Below are positions 1-2,253 of a stretch of 33,956 nt of DNA, piece by piece (position 1 is the first letter of the stretch; each line of letters opens with the position of its first letter). The stretch comes from Actinomycetes bacterium (GTDB lineage: Bacteria; Actinomycetota; Acidimicrobiia; Acidimicrobiales; RAAP-2). Both the position numbers and the translations under genes were made by a program. Under the pieces are notes generated by a model, which ran no database searches, had not been told where the DNA came from, and saw nothing but the letters and a program-made list of their open reading frames with translations. The stretch is from positions 1 through 33,956 of the forward strand of contig JAJZVL010000026.1 of assembly GCA_021845725.1 (NCBI GenBank). Direction: 5' to 3'.

Positions 1-84
1 GGTCGCTGGTACGGATCCGCAGGCGCCACGAGGCCAAGTCTCGTGGCGCTTCCGGCAGAGCTGCTCGGCCAGAAGACGGAGTAG
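1..84 (+). CDS. Possible C-terminal end of TnpB (partial, begins outside window)
   Basis: Frame 1 is open from the window edge to TAG at 82-84 and gives 27 residues ending in ELLGQKTE. Its position, about 150 bases before the element's right end on the same strand, is where a tnpB gene would stop in an IS200/IS605 or IS1341-type element. The fragment is the variable C-terminal tail and holds none of the RuvC or zinc-finger motifs, so the assignment rests only on location. A perfect 10-bp inverted repeat (23-32 and 40-49, 7-nt loop) lies inside it and may belong to the omega-RNA or act as a terminator instead. It could also be non-coding. Confidence 0.3.
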   Translation, partial: GRWYGSAGATRPSLVALPAELLGQKTE

Positions 85-232
85 CCCTGGACGCACAGAC
101 GTCAGCGGCGAACCAGCCTTTGCCTACGGCGCAGGCGGCCCAGGTGGTGCTTGGCACTGTCGAAAGCCAAATGCGAGACAGCTCGGGCAACACGTCGGAA
201 TCCCCTGGCTTTAGCCATGGCGAGGAGGTCAA
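85..232 (+). ncRNA. Putative omega-RNA (right-end guide RNA) scaffold
   Basis: TnpB proteins use an RNA made from the element's right end, with the sequence just beyond the end acting as the guide. Here the roughly 150 bases from the putative tnpB stop to GTCAA end in the conserved hairpin typical of such scaffolds (206-217). The 5' limit is unknown; in known cases the RNA overlaps the 3' part of tnpB, so it could begin earlier and include the 23-49 hairpin. The predicted guide starts at 233 or 234 and reads into the trpD start. No expression evidence is available. Confidence 0.42.
222..228 (+). promoter_or_regulatory. Ribosome binding site of trpD inside the element end
   Basis: GAGGAGG is a strong Shine-Dalgarno match, 10 bases before the GTG at 239 and 13 before the ATG at 242, which favours the GTG start. 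The same seven bases belong to the conserved right-end motif of the IS200/IS605-type element, so the insertion seems to have supplied, or by chance matches, the trpD ribosome binding site. Confidence 0.55.
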
Positions 233-238
233 GTCCCT

Positions 239-1387
239 GTGATGCCGCGCCCGCTGAGCGGTGACGGCGGGCTGGCCCGGCTCGGCGGCTGGCCCGGGGT
301 TCTCGGACGGGTCATCGCCGGCGAGTCCTTGTCCGAGGACGAGGCCGCGGCGGTGATCGGCGAGGTGCTCGACGGCGAGGCGACGCCCGCCCAGACCGCG
401 GCGATGCTGGTCGCACTGCGGATGAAAGGTGAGACCGTCGAGGAGATGTCGGGCTTCGTCCGCGCGATGCTCGCCCACGCGCTGAGGGTGCCGGTCGACG
501 GGGACGTCGTCGACGTCGTGGGCACGGGCGGCGACCGCCTCTCGAGCATCAACGTGTCGACCCTCGCCGCGTGCATCACGGCGGGTGCCGGCGTCCGTGT
601 GTGCAAGCACGGGAACCGAGCTGCATCGTCCTCGGTCGGCACCGCGGACGTCCTCGAAGCGCTCGGAGTCGTCGTCGACCTCGGGCCGGCGGGGGTCGCC
701 CGCTGCGTGCAGGAGGTCGGCTTCGGGTTCTGCTTCGCGCCGCGCTACCACCCCGCGATGCGCTATGCCGGTCCTGTACGCAAGGAGCTCGGCGTGCCGA
801 CGGTGCTCAATTTCCTCGGGCCGCTCGCCAACCCGGCTCGAGCGACCCGGCAGCTCGTGGGAGTGAGCGATCCCGCGATGGCGCCGAAGATGGCCGAGGT
901 CCTGGGATCGACCGGGAGCGTGCACGCCATGGTGGTCCACGCCGACGACGGGCTGGACGAGCTGAGCGTCACGTCGGCGTCCACGGTCCTCGAGGTCACG
1001 GCGGATGTCGACGCTCCGGGTGCGTACAGGTTCCGGTCCTGGCGGCTGCAGCCAGAGGAGCTGGGCATCGCGCGCGCACCGATGTCCGAGCTGCGCGGCG
1101 GCGACGCTGCGTTCAACGCGGGGGTCATCCGCCGCGTCCTCGACGGTGAGCGCGGCGCACGGCGCGACATCGGCGTGCTGAACGCGGCCGCAGCGCTCGT
1201 GGTCGCCGGCGCGGCCGCGTCGCTCGGCGACGGGGCAGTGATGGCCGCCGAGGCGCTCGACTCGGGGCGCGCCCTCGGGGCGTTGGAGGGTCTCGTGCGC
1301 GTGTCGCGTCAAGCGGCCGAGGTGGAGCGTGCGGGCGTTGCTCAGCCGCCGGCCGAAGGCAGCGGGCTGCCGTCCGCAGCGACATAG
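239..1387 (+). CDS. trpD: Anthranilate phosphoribosyltransferase
   Basis: TrpD joins anthranilate to PRPP to give phosphoribosyl-anthranilate, the second committed step of tryptophan synthesis, in the cytosol. The 382-residue product shows the PRPP/diphosphate loop GTGGD at 95-99, the following SSINVST segment, KHGNRAASS at 123-131 with GTADVLEALG after it, and the acidic DGLDELS metal-binding region near 240. An N-terminal helical domain (about 15-85) precedes the phosphoribosyltransferase fold. The family usually has about 340-350 residues; the extra is a Pro/Ala/Ser-rich tail of about 25. GTG 239 is preferred over ATG 242 by Shine-Dalgarno spacing. No other trp gene is present. The 5' end abuts a TnpB-type element end, and the last 46 bases overlap the convergent methyltransferase gene. 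Confidence 0.96.
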   Translation: MMPRPLSGDGGLARLGGWPGVLGRVIAGESLSEDEAAAVIGEVLDGEATPAQTAAMLVALRMKGETVEEMSGFVRAMLAHALRVPVDGDVVDVVGTGGDRLSSINVSTLAACITAGAGVRVCKHGNRAASSSVGTADVLEALGVVVDLGPAGVARCVQEVGFGFCFAPRYHPAMRYAGPVRKELGVPTVLNFLGPLANPARATRQLVGVSDPAMAPKMAEVLGSTGSVHAMVVHADDGLDELSVTSASTVLEVTADVDAPGAYRFRSWRLQPEELGIARAPMSELRGGDAAFNAGVIRRVLDGERGARRDIGVLNAAAALVVAGAAASLGDGAVMAAEALDSGRALGALEGLVRVSRQAAEVERAGVAQPPAEGSGLPSAAT

Positions 1388-2253
1388 GCAATGCCGTCGC
1401 TGCCCAGCCGATGGCGCATGACCTCGAGCGCGTGCGGGTTGTCGTCGACGAGGAAGAACCGCCGCCCGAGCTCGCGGGCTACGGCGCCGGTCGTGCCACT
1501 GCCGGCGAAGAAGTCGAGCACCCGCGCCCCTGGCTGCGACGATGCCTGGACGATACGGCGGAGCACGCCGGCAGGCTTCTGCGTCGGGTACCCGGTCTTC
1601 TCCGCGCCCATGGTGGGCACGATGGTGTGCCACCACACGTCGGTCGGCAGCTTTCCCCGGGCCGCCTTGTCTCTCGTGACGAGACCGGGGGCCATGTAGG
1701 GGATCCGGTCGACGGCTGTGCGGTCGAAGTAATGGGTGCCGGAGCACTTGGCGTAGACGAGGATCGTGTCGTGCTTCGCTGGCCACCGGTCGCGCGCTCT
1801 GCCGCCATAGTCGTACGCCCAGACGAGCTCGTTCAAGAAGCTGCGGCGCCCGAAGATCCGGTCGAGCGCGACCTTCACGTAGTGGGCTTCGCGGTAGTCG
1901 AGGTGGACGTAGAGCGTCCCGTCGTCGCTGAGGAGGCGCCGTGCCTCGGCGAGGCGTGGCCCGAGGAAGCCCACGTAGTCGTCGAACGCGTCTGGAAAGC
2001 TGGAGGCGCCGGTCTCGGACGTGCGGTAGCGGTGACCTCCGAAGCCCGTGCGGTCCCCTGTCTCGTCGCGCATCGTACGCAGGGTGCGCCGGCGCTGGAC
2101 GCTGCCGGTGTTGAAGGGCGGATCGACGTAGACGAGCTGGAATGCCGCATCGGGCAGCGTGCACAGGACGGCGGCGTTGTCGCCCAGGACGACGTAGTCG
2201 CGCGGTGTTGCCAGGTCGATCATGGGAGGCTCGCAACGAGGTGGCGCCGGCAC
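1342..2253 (-). CDS. Orphan site-specific DNA methyltransferase (beta class, N6-adenine or N4-cytosine)
   Basis: This is a SAM-dependent exocyclic-amino DNA methyltransferase. The catalytic motif IV, DPPFNTG, comes first (34-40 counting from the internal ATG at 2223) and the SAM-binding motif I, FFAGSGTT, comes late (238-245). That IV-then-I order defines the beta class, and DPPF is commoner in N6-adenine enzymes. The target-recognition part lies between them. TQKP before motif I is also typical. The frame can start at GTG 2253 or ATG 2223; neither has a clear Shine-Dalgarno, and a minus-strand TATCGT box (2274-2269) would permit either. The product is 303 or 293 residues. No restriction endonuclease gene is next to it, so it looks solitary, perhaps regulatory. 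Its 3' end overlaps trpD tail to tail by 46 bases. Confidence 0.88.
   Translation of the reverse strand: MPAPPRCEPPMIDLATPRDYVVLGDNAAVLCTLPDAAFQLVYVDPPFNTGSVQRRRTLRTMRDETGDRTGFGGHRYRTSETGASSFPDAFDDYVGFLGPRLAEARRLLSDDGTLYVHLDYREAHYVKVALDRIFGRRSFLNELVWAYDYGGRARDRWPAKHDTILVYAKCSGTHYFDRTAVDRIPYMAPGLVTRDKAARGKLPTDVWWHTIVPTMGAEKTGYPTQKPAGVLRRIVQASSQPGARVLDFFAGSGTTGAVARELGRRFFLVDDNPHALEVMRHRLGSDGIAYVAADGSPLPSAGG

Follow-up and report, generated by a model that had tools for sequence, protein, structure and literature searches.

The first 232 bases of the window, the 33,956-nt stretch of DNA analysed here, are the 3' part of an IS608-like element of the IS200/IS605 group, and they directly precede trpD (Table 1). 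The window begins where contig C40 begins, in an assembly of 3.05 Mb (150 contigs) referred to below as the own genome. We consider it very probable that these bases form the right part of an IS608-type element carrying tnpA and tnpB, inserted at TGAC ahead of trpD, whose predicted guide would correspond to the trpD start. This reading builds on the presence of both ends on two contigs of the own genome, on relatives in which the site is empty, and on the genes carried by a near-identical copy.

Table 1. Coordinates of the features at the start of the window
Feature	Position	Strand	Basis or remark
tnpB 3' end, frame 3	3..140	+	3-137 equal to residues 518-562 of the L053 TnpB at 100%; DNA match to L053
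Presumed omega-RNA (reRNA) scaffold	85..232	+	Core conserved in aligned right ends; consensus fold; limit at 85 arbitrary
Putative read-through extension of tnpB, 33 codons through the right end	141..242	+	TAG of L053 is CAG here (141-143)
GAAT, letters of the IS608 right guide GR	198..201	+	5' of the hairpin; IS608 letters from the excerpted text of PMC5934647
Right-end hairpin	201..223	+	Loop TTTA, bulged T218, one pair broken by C221
GGAGG of the right-end GAGGAGG; possible trpD Shine-Dalgarno	224..228	+	Letters read; function inferred
TCAA, right cleavage site, element end at 232	229..232	+	Flanks of other copies diverge right after; letters of the IS608 CR
Predicted guide segment (flank, trpD start)	233..252	+	Boundary from other copies; role by analogy with the excerpted text of PMC8612924
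trpD, anthranilate phosphoribosyltransferase, start GTG 239 or ATG 242	239..1387	+	TIGR01245, 383.6 bits (cut-off 199); Pfam

Right end and its recurrence in other genomes

In the window, GAAT leads into a stem formed by 201-209 and 214-223 and closed by the loop at 210-213, after which GGAGG and TCAA run into the trpD start, the GGAGG lying 10 nt before the GTG and 13 nt before the ATG. The preliminary description had read an IS200/IS605 right-end pattern at 197-232; the letters are as described there, and G028, G092 and G098 between them carry the same end six times; in these three genomes the matches run no further than 232-236, and directly past TCAA the flanks are different. These genomes were retrieved by BLASTN with window 1-238 against 296 genomes of the class, which gave matches in five, the own genome included (best E 3e-14); in the fifth, G113, the match is limited to window 23-109. 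The four best copies among the three genomes start about 70 bases from contig ends, in a repeat-like manner. When up to three mismatches were allowed, the right-end pattern occurred once in the 3.05 Mb of the own genome and never in the reversed control. A pattern of the conserved core, scanned over genome contigs, retrieved 19 stretches, all titled as actinobacterial MAGs. Phage and plasmid records (8 and 12, respectively) gave only short matches, none longer than 42 bases, which fall in the right-end core for 14 of the 20 records and elsewhere for the rest; the whole element had no megablast match among plasmids, and the viral contigs yielded neither a pattern match nor a confirmed relative by protein.

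The stem, whose structure was itself derived from one of the aligned right-end sequences, is paired in 98.2% of 109 cells in a 13-row alignment, against 41-79% when slid, a value reached by 11 of 500 shuffles. Because L047, L052, L054 and L056, which break the stem, were among the rows omitted from this alignment together with L045, the first L046 copy and L059, the pairing was recounted over all 20 collected right-end rows, giving 159 of 170 cells. Both-sided change affects a single stem pair, as much as in 392 of 500 shuffles, and covariation support is therefore weak. The predicted single-stranded DNA fold of window 190-240 is not better than that of shuffles (z 0.85), nor is the RNA fold of window 85-252 stronger (z -0.16). 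Rfam gave no match above threshold in window 1-600. Below threshold, the HgcC RNA (RF00062) aligned over its full length to window 105-245, sharing the hairpin and GAGGAGGUCA; its 12.7 bits (E 2.2) are far under the gathering score of 50, and assignment to HgcC was rejected on this score. A literature search returned no use of HgcC as a name for TnpB-type RNAs among the matches listed.

Insertion site between ACAD and trpD

The trpD gene is present in 93 of the 100 genomes searched, the own genome included. The 400 nt upstream of trpD were surveyed at the loci of 29 relatives (L007-L035, one per genome). The signature EGTSQ of an acyl-CoA dehydrogenase gene (ACAD) lies upstream of trpD at 28 of these loci and the right end ahead of trpD at none, which places the element exactly between ACAD and trpD. 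The preliminary description had suggested looking for a left end and for an empty site ahead of trpD in related genomes, and both were found. The left end is on the other side of an assembly gap, on contig C37, whose end carries ACAD (Pfam), GGGACTGAC, the left end and some 30 bases of tnpA counted from its ATG, which is all of this gene in the own assembly. The empty site, with GGGACTGAC followed directly by GTC, is found in the two nearest relatives, the trpD junction reading GGGACTGACGTCCTCTCGATG in G012, the nearest of all, and GGGACTGACGTCG in G004; the motif, being absent from all 29 loci, is not conserved ahead of trpD irrespective of an element. Elsewhere the junction letters are TGACGCC (G007-G009) or, in the same-genus G010, TGAA and not TGAC. 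As reconstructed from the two contigs, the order in the own genome is ACAD, TGAC, left end to right end, then GTCCCTGTGATG and trpD. Subterminal hairpins are present at both ends, and the target is not duplicated, TGAC, element and flank facing TGAC and flank at the empty site of the nearest relatives.

The element would have entered 3' of TGAC through single-strand transposition, landing on the ACAD stop codon directly ahead of trpD. As TGAC includes TGA, ACAD would keep its stop codon; trpD would retain its start and lose its direct link to the upstream gene. A scan for promoters and terminators in window 1-1500 found none.

Two readings that dispense with an insertion were weighed on these data. 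The hairpin followed by GAGGAGG at ribosome-binding distance could recall an ordinary trpD leader, that is an attenuator or a ribosome-binding hairpin with no element involved, but its absence from all 29 relatives' trpD loci and the occurrence of the same end, with a sharp boundary, at unrelated loci refute this explanation, to which we give practically no weight. A misjoining of the right end to trpD by assembly or binning might be suspected since the window begins at a contig end and the most complete copy (L053, below) itself looks chimeric; such an artefact is nevertheless very unlikely, as ACAD, which 28 of the 29 relatives' loci also have ahead of trpD, borders the left end on C37 in exactly the orthologous position, and the two junctions agree.

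On the other side of trpD, a large frame on the minus strand (window 1342-2253) is convergent with trpD and overlaps its end. Its motifs DPPFN and FAGSGTT give it the look of a DNA methyltransferase, and sequence similar to it was seen by reading beside trpD in L007, L008, L010 and L011.

Gene content of the near-identical copy

A complete element of 2,295 bases is present in L053 (JAKAQW010000219.1, a MAG contig); it follows TGAC and runs through left end, tnpA (136 aa), tnpB (563 aa) and right end with TCAA, and the start codon ATG of tnpB overlaps the stop codon of tnpA (TGATG). The end of this element and window 1-235 are 95% identical, and over about 350 nt the two ends in the own genome are 95-100% identical to this copy, in which tnpA and tnpB are open. 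The left 1,679 bases of L053 are identical to the own genome, C37 matching up to its last two bases. On its right side, L053 does not run into trpD: this flank shares with the own genome just stretches of 64-66 nt towards its far end (92-98%), and longer parts of it match relatives at 72-77%. L053 is thus probably a chimeric contig joined through the repeat, for which reason it was relied on for the gene content of the element and not for its insertion site. The middle of the element is absent from the own assembly, where the L053 element matches C37 and C40 only. Two more TnpB-domain loci of the own genome, G000:C11:5744-6319 (L004) and G000:C130:15748-15945 (L003), are on this ground not copies of the element and were discarded as its missing parts.

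The L053 TnpA is a Y1 HUH transposase (PF01797, E 8e-42; NF033573 above cut-off), and its best matches among solved chains are 2vhg and 2a6m, the latter carrying the label ISHp608 transposase (E ~1e-51). Its TnpB, of which 562 of the 563 residues were used in the searches, is strongly divergent. It matches the NCBIfam guided_TnpB model (NF040570) over positions 3-386 of 389 with E 1.2e-13 and 51 bits, below the cut-off of 100 of that model; it has no Pfam match at 0.1, the TNB domain appearing at 0.16, and it matches a PHROG transposase family (E 2e-17) and, by tblastn, an annotated TnpB of Acidithiobacillus caldus (30%, E 3e-38). The RuvC residues D250, E358 and D437, read in the L053 copy as the window copy covers TnpB residues 518-562, are invariant in all five TnpBs aligned, one of which is the distant C11 protein. 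In the zinc finger of L053 and L046, C410 and C427 are kept and the partner positions are altered. Few genomes of the class encode a relative of this TnpB (5 of 395, the own genome included, at E 1e-10). A tnpB reading frame upstream, which had so far been assumed, is accordingly present, as a 3' end in the window and as the full-length, below-cut-off guided_TnpB match in L053. Its end was misplaced at 84 in the preliminary description: the frame stopping there was ruled out, the match to TnpB lying in frame 3.

Target motif and left-end guide

Left ends were sought upstream of the related copies with a loose pattern, in which the first letter of CAAG was free and TGAC not required, together with reading of the upstream sequences. 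TGAC precedes all six left ends recognised (L053, L046, L085, L076, the Acidithiobacillus plasmid L073 and the Mycobacterium avium plasmid L074) and CAAG stands just 5' of the hairpin in the same six, a count that is not blind since these ends were picked by eye, partly by their CAAG-plus-hairpin look. No left end with TGAC and CAAG was recognised in the more distant L080, L082 and L083, and L077 is cut by a contig end. These three remoter relatives (TnpB 40-43% identical) have tnpA on the opposite strand and a left region that looks different, with a long GC-rich hairpin. In L046 (4355-6186), a related element follows TGAC with tnpB present and tnpA absent between the left end and tnpB.

The guides and cleavage sites of the element match each other as in IS608 at the right end (GR GAAT, CR TCAA) and as GL CAAG with CL TGAC in the six recognised left ends. 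According to the excerpted text of PMC5934647, the target of IS608 is TTAC and its left guide AAAG, the pairs 16:-3 and 17:-4 being both A:T. By an inferred alignment that places CAAG at positions 16-19, the pair 16:-3 would here be C:G and 17:-4 A:T, which would represent a compensatory change relative to IS608.

Predicted guide RNA and proposed cycle

The core GACAGC to ACACGTCGGAATCCCC, at about 176-205, is conserved in the presumed scaffold. In ISDra2 of Deinococcus radiodurans, the TnpB-bound RNA spans the tnpB end and the right end and continues for about 16 nt into the flank, the insertion target serving as TAM (excerpted text of PMC8612924); a right-end RNA with a guide from the 3' flank would be expected here by analogy, and the TAM would likewise be TGAC, in place of the TTGAT of ISDra2. 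TnpB can also make its guide RNA from its own message, and the TAM of AmaTnpB is TCAC (excerpted text of PMC10278001). Since the element ends at 232 and the guide of TnpB is the flank (PMC8612924, in the same excerpts), the predicted guide falls on the trpD start, at about 233-252, as had been proposed initially. With the element lying between ACAD and trpD, the RNA-guided nuclease would then target the trpD start. Such an arrangement is the expected outcome of the landing place, and other copies land elsewhere.

The cycle we propose would start with transcription through tnpB into the flank, giving an omega-RNA with the right end as scaffold and a guide at about 233-248 or 233-252. With the element in place, the target would be preceded by TCAA, without a TAM, and hence be safe. 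Excision by TnpA would rejoin TGAC and GTCCCTGTGATG into a match of the guide that TnpB would cut, and repair from a sister copy would restore the element. A search of the genome with the 18 bases of the rejoined TGAC-plus-guide site (up to three mismatches) retrieved only the donor locus, at two mismatches, and two sites at three mismatches, one of which has TGAC intact with the three mismatches adjoining.

TldRs are nuclease-dead TnpB relatives, and a guide covering the trpD start might evoke such an exapted, RNA-guided repressor of trpD. Against this, the RuvC D/E/D residues are retained in the L053 copy, the target in place lacks TGAC, and the family carries tnpA and sits at many unrelated sites, so that we hold this explanation for highly improbable.

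Changes in the window copy and possible read-through into trpD

Compared with L053, the window copy differs by the change of TAG to CAG, by a scaffold region shorter by 10 bases and by C at 221 in place of G. The stop column of tnpB holds a stop in 11 of the 13 aligned right ends, the others being the window (CAG) and the degenerate L055 (GCA); this column is in the tnpB frame for L046, L051, L053, L057 and L060, and no tnpB is in view for L044, L048 and L049, the last two being contig-end copies. The C at 221, where the nearest copy has G, breaks one stem pair and brings the DNA hairpin from -7.8 to -3.5 kcal/mol. Together, the broken pair, the 10 missing scaffold bases and the lost tnpB stop could impair excision or the guide RNA, and these changes may reflect decay, a sequencing error of the MAG, or adaptation.

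These changes also make it possible, although we judge it clearly less likely than not, that the copy is a dead or internally deleted IS608-like remnant, of which the ends persist and from which no active TnpB-guide complex is made. The differences from L053 and the absence of the middle of the element from the assembly are compatible with it, and right ends with no tnpB-like frame upstream, as judged by reading, are known at L044 and L052. It is opposed by the retention of tnpA and tnpB coding sequence at the proper places in both ends and by the close identity of these ends to a copy with both genes open. At L044:882-1017 (JAKBVZ010000017.1), the tnpB-less right end directly follows the TGA-C stop of a YegS C-terminal-domain gene, which we read as another insertion or remnant at a stop-containing TGAC.

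The read-through frame of the window copy ends at TGA 240-242, which overlaps the trpD ATG at 242-244 as TGATG, and overlaps of this type have been linked to translational coupling (excerpted text of PMC6728339). The stop loss, the 10-base change and TGATG might let ribosomes run from tnpB through the scaffold and the right end into trpD; this coupling would replace the one lost to the upstream gene, and the guide RNA would be made by cutting the tnpB message. On such a scheme, which we regard as speculative and rather improbable, the guide-RNA segment would have become a translated trpD leader, guide RNA and TrpD would be made in competition from a single transcript, and trpD would become open to cleavage once the element was lost. 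Among the matches listed by a literature search, no title pointed to the translation of a host gene from within a TnpB element, which is not proof of absence.

Relation to known systems and significance

The element falls in the IS608-like branch of a family already known; one letter of its target is different and its TnpB has diverged. It shares with IS608 of Helicobacter pylori the arrangement of tnpA and tnpB between hairpin ends and identical right-end letters (excerpted text of PMC5934647), together with a TnpA matching the solved one; it differs by its target and predicted TAM, its left guide, its strongly divergent TnpB (L053 copy) and its actinobacterial host. It offers a clean natural case in which the two junctions and the empty sites can be read and the insertion motif is retargeted, with a left-end guide and target that would differ from those of IS608 by a compensatory change, and it provides a TGAC-type, very divergent TnpB for testing. 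Since a stop codon is included in the target TGAC, an element that lands at the end of one gene leaves it whole and would put the predicted guide on the start of the next. If the read-through coupling is real, the production of a transposon guide RNA would be linked to the expression of a host biosynthetic gene. As only one trpD was found in the own genome, loss of the element would then expose this sole copy to cleavage, tying a biosynthetic gene to a transposon.
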